A stretch of 39,530 nt of DNA from an uncultured Clostridia bacterium. GTDB taxonomy: Bacteria > Bacillota > Clostridia > Oscillospirales > Ruminococcaceae. Made by a program: the position numbers and the translations under genes. How positions within the stretch are numbered: the stretch's first letter is position 1; the number at the start of each line of letters is the position of its first letter. The stretch is taken from the NCBI GenBank assembly GCA_947624675.1, contig CANQLI010000013.1, positions 1 to 39,530 of the forward strand. Reading direction: 5' to 3'. Below, in pieces: positions 3,181 through 13,539 of this stretch. The notes beneath the pieces were generated by a model that saw only the letters and a list, made by a program, of their open reading frames with translations, did no database searches and had not been told where the DNA came from.

Positions 3181-3636
3181 ATGACTTTACAGCTTTTACT
3201 GGATCAAAAGAATATAACCAAGTATCATCTGTCAAAAATAAGCGGTGTACCTAAAACAACAATCATAGATATTTGTTCAGGACAAAGCTCAATTGCCCGT
3301 TGCTCTGCAAAAACTGTTTTGAACATTGCAAAGGCGTTGGGTTGCTCAATGGAGGATATTATGATGCTTGAAGAACCAAAAAAGTACAATGCCGAGACTG
3401 GCTTACCTGAAGACAAAAGCTATTTGGAGTGCGGACTACCAGAATATTTGAAAACATCTTTAGCCAATATGAAAAAATCTTGGGCTATCGAAGATAGCGG
3501 TCAAAGAGACTATCATTGGGATTTATATTGGGGAGAGTTAAATGCGGATATAAATTCTGCAGAGATTGATAAGAGTATATCTTCAGAACAGGCTTGGTAT
3601 TTACGAGAAAAATATTTAAGAATGGAAATGAATTGA
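3181..3636 (+). CDS. XRE-family helix-turn-helix regulator, HipB-like partner
   Basis: The 151-aa protein has an N-terminal Cro/C1-type HTH in residues 1-65, including the recognition helix around SGVPKTTIIDICSG. A C-terminal extension rich in Trp and Tyr (residues 75-151) has no assigned fold. The strong site AAAGGAG precedes the ATG. It ends 7 bp before a HipA-like kinase remnant, the arrangement of HipBA-type toxin-antitoxin pairs in which the HTH protein represses the operon and neutralises the kinase. With the kinase broken it may persist as an orphan regulator. Confidence 0.75.
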   Translation: MTLQLLLDQKNITKYHLSKISGVPKTTIIDICSGQSSIARCSAKTVLNIAKALGCSMEDIMMLEEPKKYNAETGLPEDKSYLECGLPEYLKTSLANMKKSWAIEDSGQRDYHWDLYWGELNADINSAEIDKSISSEQAWYLREKYLRMEMN

Positions 3637-3643
3637 TGTTTTA

Positions 3644-4246
3644 GTGATAGATTTTACAAATCTTCTAATAAGAAATAAGACTTATACCGATGCTAACGGT
3701 AGTAAGATTTTAGTTATATATAATGGCAAACAGTATATGCTAAAGTTTCCTGTTTCTCCTTAAAGAAACAAGGAGATAAACTATACAAATGGATGTGTTT
3801 CTGAATATATTGGTTGTCATATTTTCGATAGTATTGGCATTCCCGTTCAGTAGACCCTGCTTGGAACTTATACTAAGAACGGAAGAGAAATGATTGTCGT
3901 TGCCTGCAAGGACTTTACTTCTTCAGGAATTGTTTTGCAAGATTTTGCATCATTGAAAAATACGATAATCGATTCTGAGCATAACGGGTATGGTACAGAG
4001 CTTTCAGATATCCTACGTGCTATGGAAGAACAAAGAGCAATTAATCCGACAAAACTTAAGGAATGGTTTTGGGATATGTTTATCGTTGATGCACTAATAG
4101 GTAATTGGGATAGACATAATGGGAACTGGGGCTTTTTGTATGAGGTAGATACGGATAGAATGAAAATAGCACCAGTATATGATTGCGAAAGTTTCTTATT
4201 CCCTCAAGCTGATGACTTCGGGCAAGCTTGTCACATACCTTGTTGA
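3644..4246 (+). pseudogene. HipA-like serine/threonine kinase, two internal stops and lost C-terminus
   Basis: One reading frame from a GTG at 3644 carries a recognisable HipA-type protein (VIDFTNLLIRNKTYTDANGS, YTNGCVSEYIGCHIFDSIGI, GNWDRHNGNWGFLY). It is broken by TAA at 3761 and TAG at 3851. The catalytic NWDRHNGN loop and the following acidic VYDCES segment are intact. After FLFPQAD near base 4211 the sequence switches to a TnpV remnant, so the C-terminal domain is deleted. A downstream segment, 3890-4246, could still be translated but lacks the N-terminal kinase lobe. Confidence 0.8.
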
Positions 4247-4560: not shown

Positions 4561-5631
4561 ATGGAATTTATGTCTGCAAGAGAAGCTGCTGATAAATGGG
4601 GCATTTCGCAAAGAAGAGTTGCTGTTCTTTGTTCTGAAAACAGAATTGACAATGCAACTATGGTCGGCAATATGTGGATTATTCCTACTACTGCCGAAAA
4701 GCCTATTGATGCAAGAAGCGTTAGATATAGCAAATGTGTTAGCAAAAAGGTCAAGCCGTTTTTGAAATGGGCAGGTGGCAAAGGACAGCTTTTGTCCGAA
4801 ATTGAAAAGTATTATCCTTTTGGGGATGGAAAAATTATTAAATATGCAGAGCCGTTCGTAGGCGGCGGCGCCGTACTTTTCGATATTCTGAGCAAATACG
4901 ATTTGGAAGAAGTGTATATCAGCGACATTAATGCCGAACTTATCAATACATATCGCATTATTCGTGATGATATTGATGATTTAATTAAAATACTTTACAC
5001 TATGCAGAACGATTTTATTCCGTTAGATACAGATAATCGTAAAGCATACTATATGGAAAAGCGTGAGCGCTTTAACGATTTGAAAGTTAACGGGAATGAG
5101 AATATCAATATTGAAAAAGCAGCTCTAATGATTTTTCTTAACAAGACCTGTTTTAACGGTTTGTTCCGAGTCAACAAAAAGGGACTGTTTAACGTGCCTG
5201 TTGGGGCTTATAAAAATCCAACGATTTGTGATGAGGAAAACCTTAGAGCTGTATCTGAAAAGCTACAAAATGTGAGAATAGTATGCGGTGATTATAGGGA
5301 GTCCGCAGACTTCATTGATGAAAACACCTTTGTTTACTTTGATCCTCCGTACCGCCCTATTACCAATACTGCAAGTTTTACGGCATATACGGAAAATCTG
5401 TTCAATGACGAAGAACAGATTGAACTTGCGAGATTTGTTGATGATATGCATAGAAAAGGTGCAAAGATTGTAATTAGCAATTCCGATCCCAAGAACTCTA
5501 ACACCGAAGATGACTTCTTCGATAACATTTATTCATCTCATAAAATCAAGCGTGTTGAAGCTACCCGTATGATTAACTGCAACAGCGAAGCAAGGGGTAA
5601 AATCAAGGAATTGCTTATATCGAACTTTTAA
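4561..5631 (+). CDS. DNA adenine methyltransferase (Dam/DpnM, D12 class) with N-terminal HTH domain
   Basis: This 356-aa enzyme should transfer a methyl group from S-adenosylmethionine to adenine N6, protecting host GATC sites (specificity inferred from the DpnII-like partner). Residues 1-57 form a small helix-turn-helix of the kind seen in excisionase/MerR-like domains (SAREAADKWGISQRRV). The D12 catalytic core then starts at KWAGGKGQ (69-76), the SAM-binding motif, with EPFVGGGAV (97-105), NKTCFNGLFRVN (194-205) and the catalytic DPPY at 261-264. Standard DpnM proteins lack this HTH, so the fusion is unusual and may let the enzyme regulate its own promoter. First gene of an R-M operon with short spacings. 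Confidence 0.9.
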   Translation: MEFMSAREAADKWGISQRRVAVLCSENRIDNATMVGNMWIIPTTAEKPIDARSVRYSKCVSKKVKPFLKWAGGKGQLLSEIEKYYPFGDGKIIKYAEPFVGGGAVLFDILSKYDLEEVYISDINAELINTYRIIRDDIDDLIKILYTMQNDFIPLDTDNRKAYYMEKRERFNDLKVNGNENINIEKAALMIFLNKTCFNGLFRVNKKGLFNVPVGAYKNPTICDEENLRAVSEKLQNVRIVCGDYRESADFIDENTFVYFDPPYRPITNTASFTAYTENLFNDEEQIELARFVDDMHRKGAKIVISNSDPKNSNTEDDFFDNIYSSHKIKRVEATRMINCNSEARGKIKELLISNF

Positions 5632-5642
5632 GGAGTCCATGT

Positions 5643-6179
5643 ATGGAAATTAGAAGAGGAACTCAGTTTATCGAGAATGGCACTAAACAAGCCATTGTTG
5701 AATTTGTTTTTACGGTTTACATTATCTATGTTTTTCAGGGGACTTTGTCGCAGTTTGATATTGTAATCAAGTATAAAAAAGATGGCACACGCATTCGCAC
5801 TCCGAAGCACATTCATTGGGTAGTGGATATTCTTATGAAAATGCAAGGAAATGAAATCCTTACCAAGAACTACCTACAAGCGATTCAAGAATGTTGGAAT
5901 TCTTGCGTACCGCTTACAAATAATGATTACGACACCCTAAAGGTACTAATCGAAAACGGAGAGAATGATATTGACATTGAACAGTATTTCCCGCTAAATG
6001 CTTTTGGCGAATATGATGTTGAATTTCTGTATGTTTTGATGGAATTGTTGGCTGTCCAAGAAAAAACAAACCGTGCAGATGCTTATATGTTCGGTAAGAT
6101 TATCGAAGAACTACTGGAGACTGAAAGGGATATTTTCAAAATTATATACACAGCAGGCTTCGGTGGAAGGAGAGGTTGA
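5643..6179 (+). CDS. Unknown 178-aa protein inside the restriction-modification operon
   Basis: I do not recognise a family. The start ATG follows an AAGGAG site 12 bp after the methyltransferase stop, and its TGA ends one base before the endonuclease ATG, so co-translation is likely. Visible features are a hydrophobic beta-rich segment at residues 17-32 (IVEFVFTVYIIYVFQG), a basic patch KYKKDGTRIRTPKHIHW, and an acidic helical C-terminal half. No Cys clusters, signal peptide or nuclease motif stand out. Its position between methyltransferase and nuclease suggests an R-M accessory role such as control or activity modulation; this is inference from context only. Confidence 0.7.
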   Translation: MEIRRGTQFIENGTKQAIVEFVFTVYIIYVFQGTLSQFDIVIKYKKDGTRIRTPKHIHWVVDILMKMQGNEILTKNYLQAIQECWNSCVPLTNNDYDTLKVLIENGENDIDIEQYFPLNAFGEYDVEFLYVLMELLAVQEKTNRADAYMFGKIIEELLETERDIFKIIYTAGFGGRRG

Positions 6180-6180
6180 T

Positions 6181-7059
6181 ATGGCGAGAAGTTTTAACAC
6201 ATGGTTAGCCGGTTTCCGTGCCAGCATTGCGGATTATGGCTATTATATTGATTTTGATAAGGTCCATCGCAATGTTGATGGCATCAAAGTTGAATTGAAT
6301 ATCCTCAATTCTCTTATTGGCTCCAAGAACATCAGGGAAGATTTCAAGGCTCTAATTAATAAATATCCTGAAGTTTTGAAGTGCATTCCCCTGCTCTTGG
6401 CGGTAAGAGCGAATGAAATATATTGCCAGGACGAAAACGGCGGTCATCTATATCAGTTCGACTTCGGTAAGTATCCTCCGAACAGCCACATATATTACGA
6501 GCGTTATGCCTATTTTATGGAGCATACGGGTTTGTTTGATTTACTGGAAAACCACATCATCAACAATCTTGTCGACTATGCTACCGGTGTAGAAACGGGT
6601 TTGGATTCCAATGGCCGTAAAAATCGTGGCGGTCATCTGATGGAAGATTTAGTGGAGAACTTTATTAAAAAAGCTGGATTTGTCAAAGGCAAAACCTATT
6701 TCAAGGAAATGTACATACACCAAATTACCGCAGAATGGGGTACTGACCTCTCCGCCATCTCCAATCAAGGCAAAATGGAAAAACGTTTTGATTTTGTAGT
6801 TAAAACTCCGACTATGATTTATGCCATCGAAACAAACTTCTATGGCAGTGGCGGCAGTAAGCTCAACGAAACCGCAAGAAGCTACAAAACGCTTGCTATG
6901 GAAACAGATACTATCAACGGGTTTACCTTTGTTTGGTTTACTGACGGCAAAGGTTGGAATAGTGCTAGAAACAACCTTGAAGAAACCTTTGATGTGATGG
7001 ATCATATCTACAACATCAAGGATTTGGAGGATGGCATTATCAGCGAGGTTTTCAAATAA
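6181..7059 (+). CDS. Type II restriction endonuclease, DpnII/MboI family (GATC)
   Basis: The 292-aa length matches DpnII-type enzymes (about 290 aa), which cut unmethylated GATC before the G. Diagnostic stretches are GRKNRGGHLMEDLVENFI at residues 145-162 and KRFDFVVK (201-208) with ETNFYGSGGSKLNE (217-230). In that family the catalytic acid pair is the Asp of FDFV (D204) and the Glu of the E-T-N variant of the PD-(D/E)xK site (E217). I chose ATG 6181 because it follows an AAGGAGAGG site and immediately succeeds the previous stop; an upstream in-frame ATG lies deep in the preceding gene. The stop overlaps the next start (TAATG). Confidence 0.9.
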   Translation: MARSFNTWLAGFRASIADYGYYIDFDKVHRNVDGIKVELNILNSLIGSKNIREDFKALINKYPEVLKCIPLLLAVRANEIYCQDENGGHLYQFDFGKYPPNSHIYYERYAYFMEHTGLFDLLENHIINNLVDYATGVETGLDSNGRKNRGGHLMEDLVENFIKKAGFVKGKTYFKEMYIHQITAEWGTDLSAISNQGKMEKRFDFVVKTPTMIYAIETNFYGSGGSKLNETARSYKTLAMETDTINGFTFVWFTDGKGWNSARNNLEETFDVMDHIYNIKDLEDGIISEVFK

Positions 7060-7805
7060 TGGCAAAGAAGATTACAAAATGGGAGCCGGAAGATTTCGAA
7101 CTTGAAATGACTACGCACTGGTCATTTCCCAAACGCGGCGATTGGGCTACCCATGACGCGCAATGGCGAGGGAATTGGTCGCCGTACATACCTAGAAATA
7201 TAATACTTCGCTATTCGCAGGAGGGTGACTTGGTACTTGACCAGTTTGTGGGCGGCGGAACAACGCTCGTTGAGGCGAAACTGCTGAACCGTGATATAAT
7301 CGGCGTTGATGTGAATGATACTGCGCTGAAAAGGTGCAGAGAGAAAATTGACTTTGAGCATTATGGTGCAAACGGCAAGGTCTATATCCACAAGGGTGAT
7401 GCTCGCAATTTGGATTTTATTCCCGACAGCAGCATAGATCTCATTTGCACACATCCTCCATATGCTGATATTATTAAGTACAGTGAAGATATTGAAGCCG
7501 ATTTGTCGCATTTGAAAGTTGCGGACTTCCTTGAAGAAATTAAAGCCGTTGCCGCTGAGAGCTACCGAGTGCTGAAAAAGGACAAGTTCTGTGCCGTCCT
7601 GATGGGAGATACCCGTCAAAAGGGACACATGATTCCAATGTCTTTTGAGGTTATGCATATTTTTGAGGATGCCGGCTTTAAGTTAAAAGAGTTGATTATC
7701 AAAGAGCAGCATAACTGCAAAGCAACGGGATATTGGAAAACAAACAGCGTGAAGTATAACTTCTTGCTGATTGCGCATGAGTATTTGTTTGTGTTTAGAA
7801 AATAA
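7059..7805 (+). CDS. Second DNA methyltransferase of the R-M operon (N4/N6 amino type)
   Basis: The 248-aa protein carries the SAM-binding motif VLDQFVGGGTT (59-69), the acidic motif II region IIGVDVND (80-87) and the catalytic THPPY (131-135), a variant of the (D/N/S)PP(Y/F) motif of amino-methyltransferases. Motif I precedes motif IV, unlike DpnA, where the catalytic motif comes first, so this is not a standard DpnA. The start overlaps the endonuclease stop by one base. A second methyltransferase in GATC systems can protect single-stranded or hemimethylated DNA; whether this one recognises GATC is unknown. Confidence 0.85.
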   Translation: MAKKITKWEPEDFELEMTTHWSFPKRGDWATHDAQWRGNWSPYIPRNIILRYSQEGDLVLDQFVGGGTTLVEAKLLNRDIIGVDVNDTALKRCREKIDFEHYGANGKVYIHKGDARNLDFIPDSSIDLICTHPPYADIIKYSEDIEADLSHLKVADFLEEIKAVAAESYRVLKKDKFCAVLMGDTRQKGHMIPMSFEVMHIFEDAGFKLKELIIKEQHNCKATGYWKTNSVKYNFLLIAHEYLFVFRK

Positions 7806-7831
7806 AACAGACAATTAAACATCAATATAAT

Positions 7832-7915
7832 ATGAATGAACACAAAAAGTACCGGCGTATTGAGATAAAACCCAATAGACCATATAAAATTGGAGAGCAA
7901 TATAGCAATGGATAA
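7832..7915 (+). CDS. Possible 27-aa upstream ORF coupled to the reverse transcriptase
   Basis: An ATG at 7832 opens a 27-codon basic frame whose TAA (7913-7915) overlaps the reverse transcriptase start at 7908. No Shine-Dalgarno site precedes it, so translation is uncertain. The 102-bp gap it occupies could instead hold leader RNA for the downstream RT. Confidence 0.25.
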   Translation: MNEHKKYRRIEIKPNRPYKIGEQYSNG

Positions 7916-9470
7916 AAAGTATACAGATTTTATGGATGAAATATCTTCCGATGAACTTTACGAAGGTCTCCTTGCGCATGGTTTCTTTGCCGAAAAACTT
8001 CCGCCTGTATTTACCGCCGTTCCTTTCTTCAAATACTGCAAGACGATATCTGAGCCGTTTGAAGCAGGCTGGAATGAGTACATAACCTTTCGAGTAATGC
8101 GAAATATCAGCATACCAAGGCTTATGGAAATTCCGAATCCTTTTAAGTACCAAAGAGTGTGTTCTGAACTTAGGGATAACTGGGATAAGTTGCGCAACCA
8201 CTTCCATGTGCAGACAGATGGACAGAGTTATCGTGTCAGCCGAATTCATGTTCGCAAAGAGTACGACAAAAAGCGTATCTTTGAGATGAATTATAAAAAC
8301 TGGCGAGTAGACGGTAACCCGGAGTCAGAGTTACTGATGCATGACAAAGGAACGAGCCGCTTCATTGTTCAGGCTGATATCTCCACATGTTTCCCCAGCA
8401 TTTACACGCATTCAATACCGTGGGCTTTGGTGGGAAAGGAAATGGCAAAGCAAACAGTTCACGGTGACACTTGGTATAACAAGATTGATCAAGCGTGTTC
8501 AGATATGCGCAATGGTGAAACGCACGGGCTTCTTATCGGGCCGCATGCTTCAAATCTGCTTTCAGAGATTATTCTGACTGTGGTAGATAAGAAACTCTAT
8601 GATAAGGGCTATCGTTATGCCAGGAACATAGATGACTACGATTGCTATGTTGATAGTCATGATGAGGCGCAACGGTTTTTACGAGATCTTGAAGAAGCCC
8701 TCTGTGAATTCGATTTGCCGTTGAATCACAAGAAGACAAAGGTTATTGAACTCCCTATTGGCATAGAGAAAAACTGGAAACATCTGCTGAGCGATTTACC
8801 CAAAGTGGATGAATTTGGAATGGTTGAGTATCCACAGGTTAACACGTTTATTGACACGGCTTTAATGCTGGCAACAGAAACGGGCGACTTCGCAATTATC
8901 AATTATGCTATCAAAAAGCTGAAAGGGTCAAAGCTCTCTGGCAACGGAAAGAAGCTGGCGGCAAAACGATTCATGCATATGGCAGCGCTCTATCCTTACC
9001 TCTTACATTTGATGGAAGAGTATGTGTTCACACCATATGGAGTTGATGCAAGTGATATCAAGGCACTTTCAGATACGATATATCGGGACGCAATCAATCT
9101 TAATGATTATGAGAGCCTGTTTTATTCGATTTATTTTGCGATTCGATTTGACTTTGTGCTTGATGCATTTGATCGCGATTATGTCAAAGCGCAAGACTAT
9201 GTAATCCGGAGCAAATATTGCCTGCTGCTTATTATGACATGGATTTACTATATGAAACAGAATCATTGGAACCGAGACGCGACACAGGTAACGCCTTTGA
9301 ATAAAGTAGCTAGAGAATTGAAAAACACAGATATGGATCGTTACTGGTTGTTTTGCTATGAGGCATTAACTTGGGGCAGTTTACCGGGTCAATGGAGATC
9401 AATGAAGCAAGCGGGAATAAGCTTTATCAGGAAGGAAATAGTAGATGGCACTACCTCGACTAACACCTAA
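7908..9470 (+). CDS. Reverse transcriptase, defence-associated (Abi/UG-like) type
   Basis: The 520-aa protein has the order of RT fingers and palm: QADISTCFPSIYTHSIPWAL with the first catalytic Asp at 157, GLLIGPHASNLLSE at about 207-219, and ARNIDDYDCYV with the Asp pair at 242-243, followed by NHKKTKVIELP near 273-283. The usual (Y/F)xDD box is N-I-D-D, so the first aromatic is replaced. There is no intron maturase, thumb X domain or CRISPR neighbour. The C-terminal half (about 290-520) is helical and unassigned, as in Abi/unknown-group RTs that act against phages. ATG 7908 is preferred over TTG 7890 because GGAGAG lies 10 bp upstream. Its end overlaps the HEPN gene by 26 bp. Confidence 0.85.
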   Translation: MDKKYTDFMDEISSDELYEGLLAHGFFAEKLPPVFTAVPFFKYCKTISEPFEAGWNEYITFRVMRNISIPRLMEIPNPFKYQRVCSELRDNWDKLRNHFHVQTDGQSYRVSRIHVRKEYDKKRIFEMNYKNWRVDGNPESELLMHDKGTSRFIVQADISTCFPSIYTHSIPWALVGKEMAKQTVHGDTWYNKIDQACSDMRNGETHGLLIGPHASNLLSEIILTVVDKKLYDKGYRYARNIDDYDCYVDSHDEAQRFLRDLEEALCEFDLPLNHKKTKVIELPIGIEKNWKHLLSDLPKVDEFGMVEYPQVNTFIDTALMLATETGDFAIINYAIKKLKGSKLSGNGKKLAAKRFMHMAALYPYLLHLMEEYVFTPYGVDASDIKALSDTIYRDAINLNDYESLFYSIYFAIRFDFVLDAFDRDYVKAQDYVIRSKYCLLLIMTWIYYMKQNHWNRDATQVTPLNKVARELKNTDMDRYWLFCYEALTWGSLPGQWRSMKQAGISFIRKEIVDGTTSTNT

Positions 9471-10257
9471 TCAAATTGAACAGATTGCGCGCATCATGGG
9501 TGATACTGTAAATGGATTTACAGGTGCTGAGATTAGTCATATTCTTGCTCAGTGCCGCATAGATGACCCGGATCCCGGACTGACAAAGTGGAAGCGTCTG
9601 TACAATGCCTTTTGCGTTGCAGTAAATGGAAGTAGTTCAACAAATGCTGTTTTTCAATTTATACAGCATTGTATGGAGCCAGCTCAAGGATTAAATAATA
9701 TCGAACGATATAACATGATGCGGCTTGAACTCAACAAGGTCTTGATGCTTGTAGGCATTGAAATAAAGGATGATGGACAGTTCTATTCGGTTTCAAAAGC
9801 TCAGAGTCTTAGTGAAATCCAGCGGCGAACAAAAGAACTGCGCGAGAAGTTGACTGGTTATGGAGCGCATCCAGAGGTGCTGAAATGCTGTCGAGATGAA
9901 TTATTGGCACAGGATTATTTTCACGCTGTTCAGGAAGCGGCGAAGAGCCTATGTGATCGTGTAAGAACGATGTCAGGGCTAACAATGGACGGAACAGCAT
10001 TATTCAATACTGCTTTTGCAGTTGGCAATCCGTACATCGCATATAATTCATTGCGAACCAGTAGTGAACAAAATCAGCAAAATGGGCTTAAGGAAATGCT
10101 CTGCGGCGTAATTCACATGGTCAGGAATGTAACTGCTCATGAGCTTAGGATTCACTGGGATGTGAACGAGAAAGATGCAGTGGATATCTTGACTCATATT
10201 TCATATCTTCATAAGTTGCTGGATATGTGTATAACTGTAACGAGGGTGACACCATGA
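9445..10257 (+). CDS. HEPN-motif protein of the TIGR02391 (Ymh-like) type, partner of the reverse transcriptase
   Basis: The 270-aa protein starts inside the RT gene with GGAAATAG upstream and a 26-bp overlap, implying coupled translation. The C-terminal 120 residues resemble the TIGR02391 family: AQDYFHAVQEAAKSLCDRVR, then GTALFNTAF, then MLCGVIHMVRNVTAHE. R227-NVTA-H232 is an R-x4-H motif typical of HEPN ribonucleases, which act as RNA-cutting effectors in many abortive-infection systems. The N-terminal half (1-110) is helical and unassigned. In AbiA-type systems an RT and a HEPN domain sit in one chain; here they are two adjacent genes. Effector function is inferred from family and context. 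Confidence 0.75.
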   Translation: MALPRLTPNQIEQIARIMGDTVNGFTGAEISHILAQCRIDDPDPGLTKWKRLYNAFCVAVNGSSSTNAVFQFIQHCMEPAQGLNNIERYNMMRLELNKVLMLVGIEIKDDGQFYSVSKAQSLSEIQRRTKELREKLTGYGAHPEVLKCCRDELLAQDYFHAVQEAAKSLCDRVRTMSGLTMDGTALFNTAFAVGNPYIAYNSLRTSSEQNQQNGLKEMLCGVIHMVRNVTAHELRIHWDVNEKDAVDILTHISYLHKLLDMCITVTRVTP

Positions 10258-10958
10258 AAATAGAAATGTAGCGCTTTGGAAGGCCTTTTGAACCAGGGAA
10301 AGAAAAGCGAAAAAAAGAAATGCTCTTTTTGTGGTGCTTGTTTTCCTCCTTATCGCTATTGTGGTTGTAGCCCTTGTATCGATCGGTATTGAAACTGCTA
10401 TCATACATTGTGTTGTTCTTGGACAGGAAGAGACTTGGGCAGCGTCAGTAGCTTCATACTGGGGCAGCATTATCGGCGGCGTGGTTTCCGGCATACTTGC
10501 TTTTCTTGGTGTCTTTTATACGATTCGATATTACAAAGAATCAGATGCACAGAAAGAAAGAGCAGCGGTACAGCCAGCCGTTCTTTTTGGTTGAACTAGG
10601 GCAAAATCCAAGACATGAGCTAAGCAGAGGTTTTAGTCTTGGTGATCGAACTGATGATAAAGAAAAACAGAAAACGCTCAATGTAACTATTAAGAATATT
10701 GGGCATGGGTTCGCAAAAACATTAGTCATCCACACAGGGTTTAATATAGGCGGGCTGGCATTTAACAAAGTTATTAATGTTGGGGATAACGCTTATATGT
10801 TCTTTGTTCTGAACAAGGATAATCTTAAAGATGGCATATCTTTTTCCCTGCAGTACATTGATTCGATGACAAATGAATATATACAGAAATACACCATAAA
10901 AACGGAACACAGCACTATTGATATCGAATGCGGTTATCCACAATTGCTAAAACAATAG
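10254..10958 (+). pseudogene. Membrane-anchored protein, third gene of the RT operon, broken by a stop and frameshifts
   Basis: An ATG overlapping the HEPN stop (ATGA) opens a frame that stops at TAG 10,269 after five codons, then continues in frame as RFGRPFEPGKEKRKK. At the A-run near 10,310 it shifts to the frame encoding a long hydrophobic helix (VVLVFLLIAIVVVALV) and a second (SIIGGVVSGILAFLGVF). Near 10,575-10,585 (a T-rich run) it shifts again to a soluble domain of about 120 residues (VELGQNPRHELSRGFSLGD onward) ending at 10,958. So a two-helix inner-membrane protein with a cytoplasmic domain was once encoded. A sequencing error could explain one shift, but not all three lesions. Confidence 0.65.
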
Positions 10959-11024
10959 CATCCTGCTCTGTGAGTTCTTAATAGTAGCTTTAACATTACG
11001 AATTGCAGTTGGTATTCCTAAACT

Positions 11025-11053
11025 GTGGCAACAATATGGCAACAAAAAATCAG
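11025..11053 (+). repeat. Right copy of island-end repeat A
   Basis: GTGGCAACA-ATA-TGGCAACA followed by AAAAATCAG. It differs from 725-753 at three positions, in the same orientation and exactly 10,300 bp away. Confidence 0.65.
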
Positions 11054-11144
11054 ATAGACAAAATTTAATGAATAATACAAATAATACAAACACTCCAAGA
11101 CAAATCGCCCATACAAAATTGTTTAAGTACGGCTTGTCAGGAAC

Positions 11145-11179
11145 GAGTGAGAGCGATTGCGAAAGCTCGAAAGAGCCAG
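11145..11179 (+). repeat. Right copy of island-end repeat B
   Basis: 32 of 35 bases match 846-880. It contains a perfect GCTC-GAAA-GAGC mini-hairpin. Confidence 0.65.
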
Positions 11180-11212
11180 TACAATAAGGCTTTTGCCGTT
11201 TGGATGCCCTTC

Positions 11213-11239
11213 GCGGCAACAAAATGGCAACATTATTTG
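11213..11239 (+). repeat. Third paired GGCAACA site
   Basis: GGCAACA-AAA-TGGCAACA with the same 11-bp periodicity as repeat A, 34 bp after repeat B. The left end has no counterpart with this sequence; the TGATAACA pair occupies the equivalent place. Confidence 0.5.
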
Positions 11240-11255
11240 AATAGTCGTAAAAGTA

Positions 11256-11293
11256 AATAGCTATCAGATTTTTGAAGTCTGATAGCTATTTTT
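11256..11293. terminator. Strong bidirectional hairpin terminator between island and surface operon
   Basis: A perfect 13-bp stem (AATAGCTATCAGA / TCTGATAGCTATT) with a 9-base loop and a TTTGTTTT tail. It separates the rightward RT operon from the leftward surface operon. Confidence 0.85.
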
Positions 11294-11334
11294 GTTTTAC
11301 CTATATTGTAGTATTCCTTTCAATATCATTTCCA

Positions 11335-13539
11335 TCAATTCTTAGGCTCAAACAGTCCGGCAAAATCATCGGGATTAATACATCCGTCAACGCGCTGATT
11401 AGACTCTCCTGATGTGGTCGTTTGAACAGTTTCTGGAGGTGCTTCTACGGTAGTTGTAGGCTGTGTCGGCGGCTCGGTCGAAGGAGGAATTGTGTTGCTG
11501 TAATCAGTCGGCTGTGAAGTCTCCTGCTGTGCTTGTTGCTGCTCCAAATCCTGCTGCTCAAGTAAAAGCCTTTCCGCCTCCTGTTGCTCTTTTTCCTCGC
11601 GAAGCCTTTGCTCTTCGGCTTCCCTCTCCGCATCAAGCCGTTCCTGCTCTTCTAATTGCTCCTTCTGCTGATTTACAGCATCCTGCCACTTTTTCTTCTG
11701 CTGTTGATCGGTGTTTAAATACTGTGCATTACTGATACTCAAATATTCTGAATACAAATAATCGTTTGCGTCAAACACACTTATACTTCCCATATCAAAT
11801 ATCTCAGTATCGTATAATACCTTTTGGCCAGAATCCGAAAAAACAAACTTTATGTCGTATGTGCTTTTGCTTTCACGACTAAACCCTGCATAAATCTCAG
11901 CCTTTTCATTTTTTTCTATATTTTCACCCTTGTTAAAAATATATTTTCCCCATTCGGTTTCTCCGGATTTTTTTATGCAGATATTTGTAATATCTTTACC
12001 GGTCCTATTATATATGAACAACTGCTCGCCTTTATCGACACTTCCAAGCTTTTTAAACTCATTTTCGCTGTTTAGCTTTATTGATATATTTCCAGAATAC
12101 GAATCGGTATCAGAATACTCAGTTATACCGTTATCATCTTTAAAGTTTTTGTTTACAGTCTTTATAGATTTAAGGTCTTTACCATTTTTAATTATAATCT
12201 CAGCCTTAAGCTCACCCTTTGGCATATTCTCCTGTCTTATGTATGCCTCAAATCCAAAATCAGTATCATCATATGAAATATTAAATGTATTATATGTTTT
12301 CACTTTACCGTTGACATCGGTAAGCCTTAGATATATCTCACAATCATCATCTACATATTTTTCGTCAGCTTTTCCGGATATAAGATACATTCCGTTCATT
12401 AGCTGACATTTGATCTCAGAACTGCTGTCTGCGCTTGATGTGACCTTAAAATTGTCAAGGATCGGCGATTCTAGAACAGGCGCCTGTTTGGCAAGATTTA
12501 TCAAGTTTCGCTCTACAAGCTCTATTACAACCGTTTCCGGGTCGTATAGCTCAAGATCCCGCTCAAGGAAATATGGAACATACTTTGTGAAGTGTGCGTA
12601 AGCAAATTCCCCCGCCATCAGAGGAATAAGCGTATTTGAAAACGAATCTCTGTACATAAGAAGCGAGCTGCTTCCGCTTACGCTTGCGGTTGTAACGGAA
12701 AAATCCTCTACGCTTTTTCCTTCACCTATGTACTCATAAGAAAAGATAGGTAGATAGCTTTGATTTTCTTCACCTTTAGCCAGCTCGGGATATATCATCT
12801 TTGAAAGATCTCCTATATAGCTTTTGTCAACAGATTTCTCTCCGGTAGCATATGTGTTGTGTGGATGATCAAGCTCATCCATAATACTGTTATAGGACAA
12901 AAGCGCACCTTCACCGTTCCAGTGGGAATCTCTTTTTAAGTACAGAGTCTCATCCTGTTGCTTGAACAGCTCTTTAAGGTCAACATAGTTTACATTTTTT
13001 TCGGTAAGCTTATTTTTAAGATTGTCTAAATTAGAGCTGTTACCGTATGGCTTATAATAATACGGCATATTATCGCCGTATAGTGTATTTTTGTTTACAG
13101 GAGATGTAAAAACAAACCTTCTGCCACCGGACTCAACTCTTTTTTGGATCAAATACAAATTATGAGCTATATTGTTAAGCTTTCTTTCGCTAAAAACATT
13201 TCTTCCAAGATAATCGTCAAGCGTGACGGTAGCGTAAAGCCAACCGTCTTTTCCGACGATTATCTTATCCTCAGGAGAAACGCCGAATATATCGGACATA
13301 AGCCTTCCGTTCAGGGAAACAAGCTCATTTCTGAAAGCAAAATTTTCTTCGAACCACGCTCCGAGTTCCGAAAGATATTTTGTGTTCAAGCCGTCTGAAT
13401 CAGCGATTTCGGGCACAGGCATTTTAGTTTTGTTCTCAGCACTGTCTTGCATACCGAAAAGCTTGATAAGAGCCAACGGCGCAATGCAAATAAGTATAAA
13501 CAAACAAATATAAAAGAGTTTTATTATTTTACTGTTCAT
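11335..13539 (-). CDS. AlgJ/AlgX-like (DHHW-type) cell-surface O-acetylation protein with coiled-coil tail
   Basis: The 734-aa protein has an N-terminal membrane anchor (residues 5-28) followed by an SGNH-type domain. This shows the family signature KDGWLYA near 97-103, RDSHWNGEGA at 203-212 (the DHHW-type catalytic Asp/His) and MYRDSFSNTLIPLM near 300 carrying the candidate Ser. In alginate-type systems such proteins accept acyl groups from the MBOAT partner and move them to polysaccharide outside the membrane. A large beta-rich region follows, then a Glu/Gln coiled coil (about 630-690) and a Pro/Thr-rich tail, neither of which is usual in AlgJ. The MBOAT gene lies 15 bp upstream in the same operon. 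The acceptor polymer is unknown. Confidence 0.8.
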   Translation of the reverse strand: MNSKIIKLFYICLFILICIAPLALIKLFGMQDSAENKTKMPVPEIADSDGLNTKYLSELGAWFEENFAFRNELVSLNGRLMSDIFGVSPEDKIIVGKDGWLYATVTLDDYLGRNVFSERKLNNIAHNLYLIQKRVESGGRRFVFTSPVNKNTLYGDNMPYYYKPYGNSSNLDNLKNKLTEKNVNYVDLKELFKQQDETLYLKRDSHWNGEGALLSYNSIMDELDHPHNTYATGEKSVDKSYIGDLSKMIYPELAKGEENQSYLPIFSYEYIGEGKSVEDFSVTTASVSGSSSLLMYRDSFSNTLIPLMAGEFAYAHFTKYVPYFLERDLELYDPETVVIELVERNLINLAKQAPVLESPILDNFKVTSSADSSSEIKCQLMNGMYLISGKADEKYVDDDCEIYLRLTDVNGKVKTYNTFNISYDDTDFGFEAYIRQENMPKGELKAEIIIKNGKDLKSIKTVNKNFKDDNGITEYSDTDSYSGNISIKLNSENEFKKLGSVDKGEQLFIYNRTGKDITNICIKKSGETEWGKYIFNKGENIEKNEKAEIYAGFSRESKSTYDIKFVFSDSGQKVLYDTEIFDMGSISVFDANDYLYSEYLSISNAQYLNTDQQQKKKWQDAVNQQKEQLEEQERLDAEREAEEQRLREEKEQQEAERLLLEQQDLEQQQAQQETSQPTDYSNTIPPSTEPPTQPTTTVEAPPETVQTTTSGESNQRVDGCINPDDFAGLFEPKN

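Follow-up and report, generated by a model that had tools for sequence, protein, structure and literature searches.

The window, the whole 39,530-nucleotide stretch of DNA analysed here, carries a two-gene cassette in which a reverse transcriptase (RT) of the known DRT4/UG15 group is followed by an overlapping gene for a HEPN protein of the Ymh/TIGR02391 family, likely a ribonuclease. The pair is a real cassette that travels together between bacteria, and within it the HEPN is an accessory to the RT rather than an obligate partner. We read it as a defence cassette in which a DRT4-family RT is joined by a translationally coupled HEPN ribonuclease that would likely be under the control of the RT, and we give this reading an even chance of being correct. 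What appears new is the coupled accessory RNase gene on a known DRT4; the proposed control of the HEPN by the RT goes a step further than the gene arrangement. The first-pass annotation had put the pair forward as a candidate new antiphage system, and in that form the claim is not supported: the RT falls within a described group, and the HEPN family is known and promiscuous.

The RT gene lies on the forward strand at 7908–9470 (ATG at 7908, stop at 9470) and encodes 520 residues. The mechanical open reading frame begins at TTG 7890; ATG 7908 is the preferred start, and the equivalent position is ATG, GTG or TTG in 12 of 13 RT relatives, the exception being locus L003. The catalytic motifs named in the first reading are present: D157 of the ADIS motif (residues 156–159; codon at 8376–8378, forward strand) and D242–D243 of the NIDD motif (residues 240–243; codons at 8631–8636, forward strand) are invariant in all 16 aligned RTs. 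The description of NIDD as unusual was overstated and has been dropped, since residue 240 is mostly N in this alignment, which includes the window RT (N in 12, S in two and Y in two). Among five solved RT chains that were aligned, three carry YIDD and the other two have both aspartates replaced.

Assignment of the RT to the defence (UG/Abi) lineage was borne out by model searches, and the group can be named. Against the PADLOC Drt4 models the protein scores 662.5 bits (PDLC02178, residues 1–511) and 528.2 bits (PDLC03752), the next groups being Drt6 (281.0 bits) and RT_UG30 (185.2 bits), and a Drt4 model also ranks first in each of the ten RT relatives scanned. A new RT group is thus ruled out, as full-length Drt4 models lead every other RT group in PADLOC, and the RT belongs within DRT4/UG15 in the PADLOC sense. 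By the NCBIfam Drt4 equivalog model it lies below the cut-off (361.5 against 450 bits), as do nine of ten relatives; only L018 passes (685.8 bits), and the window RT is 29% identical to it, which marks a divergent DRT4 branch. The predicted fold, an RT core with a C-terminal helical domain, matches that of DRT4. The template-free polymerase suggested in the first reading would be the natural expectation for an enzyme of this family. Two relatives have further genes close by. In L018 (Pseudoalteromonas) the Drt4 gene overlaps by 4 nt an upstream 704-residue reading frame (L018 2881–4995) with no Pfam match at an E value of 0.01. In L010 (3558–4358), the gene 6 nt downstream of a DRT4 relative (59%) may be a further accessory; its product matches DUF5677 below the threshold.

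The HEPN gene occupies 9445–10257 of the same strand, starts at ATG 9445 and encodes 270 residues. The first 135 or so of these are mostly helical, and the Ymh HEPN domain forms the C-terminal part. The protein matches PF09509 with 133.8 bits (cut-off 25), TIGR02391 with 116.1 bits (cut-off 39.45), PADLOC PD-Lambda-3_B with 214.9 bits (residues 4–264) and phrog_6297 with 207 bits. The R-x4-H motif that had been picked out at R227 and H232 is confirmed as R227-N-V-T-A-H232 (10123–10140, forward strand); neither residue varies in two alignments that partly share sequences, one of 13 and one of 22 homologues, and the R-x4-6-H motif of the Ymh family is intact.

The two genes overlap by 26 nt (9445–9470) in different frames, exactly as first proposed. 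A ribosome-binding-site-like AGGAAGGA lies within the RT gene at 9429–9436 of the forward strand, 8 nt before the HEPN start by direct reading. Across the four loci with an intact pair it is AGGAAGGA in three and AGAAAGGA in one, and the start of the HEPN reads M[AT]LP[RQ]LT.NQIEQIAR in all four. Translation of the RT and the HEPN is probably coupled, judging from this arrangement.

The cassette lies in a defence island, and the restriction system reported beside it is real. At 4561–7805 on the forward strand, as context outside the cassette, are genes for a Dam-like methylase (4561–5631), a 178-residue protein of unassigned family (5643–6179), DpnII (6184–7059; PF04556, 375 bits) and an N6/N4 methylase (7059–7805). 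Two imperfect direct repeats of 70 nt (811–880 and 11110–11179; 73% identical, spacing 10,299) bracket the island, with the cassette near its right end, and a NikA-like mobilisation gene lies inside; the right repeat adjoins right-end sequence common to L002, L003 and L009. The repeats resemble the termini of an integrative element whose cargo would include the restriction genes and the RT–HEPN cassette. Motifs of the TGGCAACA type occur close to them at 727–750 and 11027–11050. Downstream of the pair, at 10300–10958 on the forward strand, is a frameshifted remnant of a third gene that by eye looks membrane-anchored; its 10497–10958 part has no PADLOC match, and among the other intact pairs it occurs only in L003. 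It is possibly a former third member of the cassette. Elsewhere in the window, a fragment at 3890–4246 with a HipA C-terminal domain, adjoining an HTH gene (3181–3636), partially matches the PADLOC candidate models PDC-M03A and is likely a toxin–antitoxin remnant. A MAG contig (L014 1–5728) carries nearly the same island (4764 nt at 98.9% identity and 1011 nt at 89.7%), but the RT there is interrupted and shortened, and no HEPN follows within the available sequence, which stops before the RT–HEPN junction. The island may have been transferred recently and then inactivated, or the assembly may be at fault.

An island that also holds an unrelated restriction system could have brought the RT and the HEPN together by chance, without functional pairing. 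We regard this as very improbable, and it is already largely refuted by recurrence. An RT-first scan of genome_contigs gave 13 loci, three of which (L002, L003 and L007) carry a full-length HEPN (85–86% identity) downstream of the RT, so that the survey proposed in the first-pass annotation did find both homologues together and the overlapping two-gene unit recurs in three other genomes. With the window, four intact pairs have been found so far. In the other three the HEPN likewise starts inside the RT gene, with an overlap of 35 nt against 26 nt in the window, and in all four the genes are separate overlapping reading frames without fusion. The flanks differ: the window has the DpnII genes, L002 a C5-methylase, a DUF4928 protein and Vsr, and L007 a TIR-domain protein. 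DNA homology to the window opens between 9 nt before and 4 nt after the RT start position in the three loci. Its far end is at 10268 for L002 and at 10277 for L007, which gives tight cassette edges; in L003 it extends to 11135, through the remnant third gene. The restriction genes at 4561–7805 lie outside the homologous stretch of all three. In L003 (3289–6569) and L007 (63–4674), two different hosts, the cassette is downstream of a gene that we take by eye to be guaA, perhaps a shared insertion site.

Selection also speaks against chance neighbours, both genes being under purifying selection. In the six comparisons among the four intact pairs, over non-overlapping codons, dN/dS is 0.075–0.148 for the RT and 0.078–0.152 for the HEPN, with dS of 0.55–0.86 and 0.59–1.38, respectively, which indicates that constraint on both has lasted through a long divergence. 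Without L007 the RT and HEPN dS values are nearly equal (0.55/0.59, 0.69/0.69 and 0.86/0.89). In the three comparisons with L007 (0.62/0.95, 0.64/0.83 and 0.84/1.38) the HEPN dS is about 1.3 to 1.6 times that of the RT, at values near saturation. The excess may reflect saturation or a partly separate history of the two genes, so the RT and HEPN there perhaps do not share a wholly joint past, and it counts against the coupled-cassette reading, as does the number of intact pairs, which is four only.

The pairing is not obligate. The first-pass annotation described an RT and an effector divided between two co-translated genes; the overlapping, co-encoded unit stands, but four relatives (L004, L005, L006 and L008) have lost the HEPN, which is decayed or cut down to its first codons there while the RT is intact. 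In L006 the intact RT is followed by a decayed HEPN with in-frame stops, of which tblastn matches 73 residues only (47%); after the RT stop the best local HEPN score is 73, while the shuffle maximum is 28. In L008 the HEPN start and about 31 nt past the RT stop survive, with nothing after, and in L004 and L005 the first HEPN codons are recognisable within the RT coding tail. L011 is uncertain, its junction HEPN score equalling the shuffle maximum, and L009, L010, L012 and L013 show no HEPN trace after the RT. Further RTs without a HEPN occur in L029–L031. The simplest reading, on a poorly resolved tree, is that the HEPN was gained in the ancestor of the 82–89% clade and later lost in several lines; L005 and L008, firm sisters on that tree, may share one loss. 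It looks as if a DRT4 lineage captured the HEPN as an accessory effector and repeatedly lost it. That the HEPN is dispensable in four relatives weighs against the coupled-cassette reading.

The HEPN likewise occurs apart from the RT. HEPN-first searches returned 29 relatives outside the window (six in whole genomes, 20 on viral contigs and three on plasmids), and this RT was found near none of them in the available flanks (tblastn, E ≤ 1e-3); at least 1.6 kb of upstream sequence was present in 25 of the 29, with L040, L041, L046 and L050 ending at contig edges. At L038, one of these 25, whose HEPN is 72% identical, there is no such RT within 5 kb. Other partners are possible for this HEPN family, among them a HamA-domain protein, which a relative directly precedes in L033 (6047–7707), and a TIR-domain protein, which another directly precedes in L032 (5972–8415; match just above the cut-off). 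In L035 (4051–8318) and L036 (4604–8873), HEPN relatives (40–42%) sit with overlapping ends between two genes that by eye we presume to be type I restriction hsdM and hsdS. Among plasmid records, 108 have a HEPN match, and in the three inspected the annotated neighbours are other genes, although on one of them an RT of the group II intron type lies about 2.8 kb away; a close RT was not found among 213 plasmid matches, all below 60% identity and one covering at least 80%. A viral origin was considered and rejected, the P0001 and P0002 scans of viral_contigs having given no relative. Alignment-based scans of viral contigs returned 20 HEPN and five RT relatives, the RTs at 43% or lower over long segments and with a short 59% match in L062, and none was paired in the available flanks. 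Annotated phage records gave nine matches to the RT, each spanning less than 80% of the query, and seven to the HEPN at 31–36%.

These observations feed the main rival to coupling, namely that the DRT4 and the Ymh HEPN are each self-sufficient, the HEPN having a separate trigger, and are two independent effectors on one message, co-transcribed for convenience and carried together as both pay. We consider this a serious alternative, though less probable than coupling. It is favoured by the RTs that have no HEPN (L009, L010, L012, L013 and L029–L031), by the absence of this RT from the flanks of all 29 HEPN-first loci, by the other neighbours on the three plasmids and by the description of DRT4 as a single-gene system (PMC13213688). 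Wider sampling points the same way: among 394 genomes of the order the RT occurs in three and the HEPN in three, among 398 of the phylum in two and five, respectively, and in both samples the window's own genome is the sole one with both. In a DNA search of 196 genomes from the class, no further pair came up. Against independence stand the HEPN start within the RT gene, with its internal ribosome-site-like sequence, in four of four intact pairs, the tight edges in L002 and L007, and the joint purifying selection. The overlap could also be that of a toxin–antitoxin pair, the RT protein being the antitoxin of a HEPN toxin, and there are known HEPN toxins, SO_3166 among them, whose antitoxin gene lies next to theirs. 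This is improbable: an RT-dependent HEPN should not occur alone, yet the L038 HEPN has no such RT within 5 kb, and the first gene keeps intact polymerase residues. The L038 HEPN is a point against the coupled-cassette reading as well.

Several known systems resemble the cassette in part. DRT4 is described as carrying out Tyr-primed, template-independent synthesis of random ssDNA by one RT, activated with a phage DNA-binding protein (PMC13213688, PMC13314766). The window RT shares with DRT4 full-length model matches, the predicted fold and the catalytic aspartates, but differs as a divergent branch with an overlapping downstream HEPN; from DRT6 it is set apart by its far higher Drt4 scores. The first-pass annotation had also named the finding that would count against novelty, namely that the RT belongs to a known DRT group for which a HEPN partner has been described. 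The group is indeed known, but no description of such a partner was found in the literature searched; the UG/Abi survey (gkac467) and the primary DRT4 paper lay outside that search, so absence of the pairing from print is not established. The HEPN is a full-length homologue of component B of PD-lambda-3, which is called an abortive infection system (PMC13190303) and is listed with a PD-(D/E)XK nuclease (PMC10952713). That nuclease is presumably component A, whereas in the window the partner is an RT. In PADLOC, Drt4 and PD-Lambda-3_B are separate models, and among the matches listed for six window proteins in 4561–10257, which for two of them are the best 25, there is no other PD-Lambda-3 model. 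Ymh HEPN proteins also occur in restriction–modification operons (PMC3710099); these likewise place the family beside other defence genes, but in the window the partner is a DRT4 RT and the genes overlap.

AbiA joins an RT of the UG/Abi lineage to a HEPN domain too, but as a fusion at the RT C-terminus rather than as separate overlapping reading frames. The AbiA HEPN is reported to be enzymatically inactive and to be needed for dimerisation and polymerisation (PMC11077055). This precedent counts against the coupled-cassette reading and would favour a HEPN that is a structural or regulatory RT subunit and no nuclease. A purely structural HEPN is nevertheless unlikely: all 22 homologues keep R-x4-H, and other RTs in this clade remain intact where the HEPN is missing. 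In addition, the solved DRT4 and DRT6 sequences have six chains per entry and a PDB sequence search found no Ymh relative, so that such RTs appear to assemble without a HEPN partner.

Under the coupled-cassette reading, the RT would act like other DRT4 enzymes, as a protein-primed, template-independent polymerase making ssDNA that would turn harmful or useful once a phage protein intervenes. The HEPN would be a second, conditional effector: infection would be sensed, cellular RNA cut and the cell stopped. tRNA is a common HEPN target. Either the RT complex or the DNA it makes would hold the HEPN in check or set it off, which seems the most likely form of control because the HEPN starts inside the RT gene and moves with the RT.

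The functional parallel from which this control is proposed is the type IX retron retron-Kva2, in which an RT and a separate HEPN RNase share one operon and RT-made DNA controls the RNase. According to a preprint (PMC13405049), the RT–DNA complex holds a HEPN dimer and a phage protein frees it, leading to tRNA cleavage. There are distinguishable differences. Retron-Kva2 has an msr–msd ncRNA, a winged-helix protein and a HEPN without the canonical motif, according to the same preprint, whereas the window pair has a canonical R-x4-H and no third gene common to the four pairs, and a conserved flanking sequence was not found. The window RT is not of the retron type, its sole NCBIfam retron match reaching 21.9 bits against a cut-off of 235. 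A flanking ncRNA of the DRT2, DRT9 or retron type is improbable: an Rfam search of 7000–11500 gave no match, leaving room for an RNA within the coding region, and in L002–L008 the blastn homology reaches no further than 9 nt ahead of the RT. A bolder version of the coupled-cassette reading, which we hold to be doubtful, is that a separate HEPN RNase is switched by the protein-bound ssDNA that the RT makes without a template, either bare or with a phage DNA-binding protein coating it. Random-sequence DNA would then be a signal and not a poison, in an ncRNA-free setting outside the retrons.

DRT4 is presented as a minimal one-gene system whose own ssDNA is the toxic agent. A lineage with a coupled RNase, some of whose sister loci have lost that gene, offers a natural experiment: it can show whether protein effectors respond to DRT-made DNA as a signal, in the way that retrons use msDNA, or merely accumulate beside RTs. 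The catalogue label 'DRT4' can also conceal two-gene forms that single-gene searches miss.
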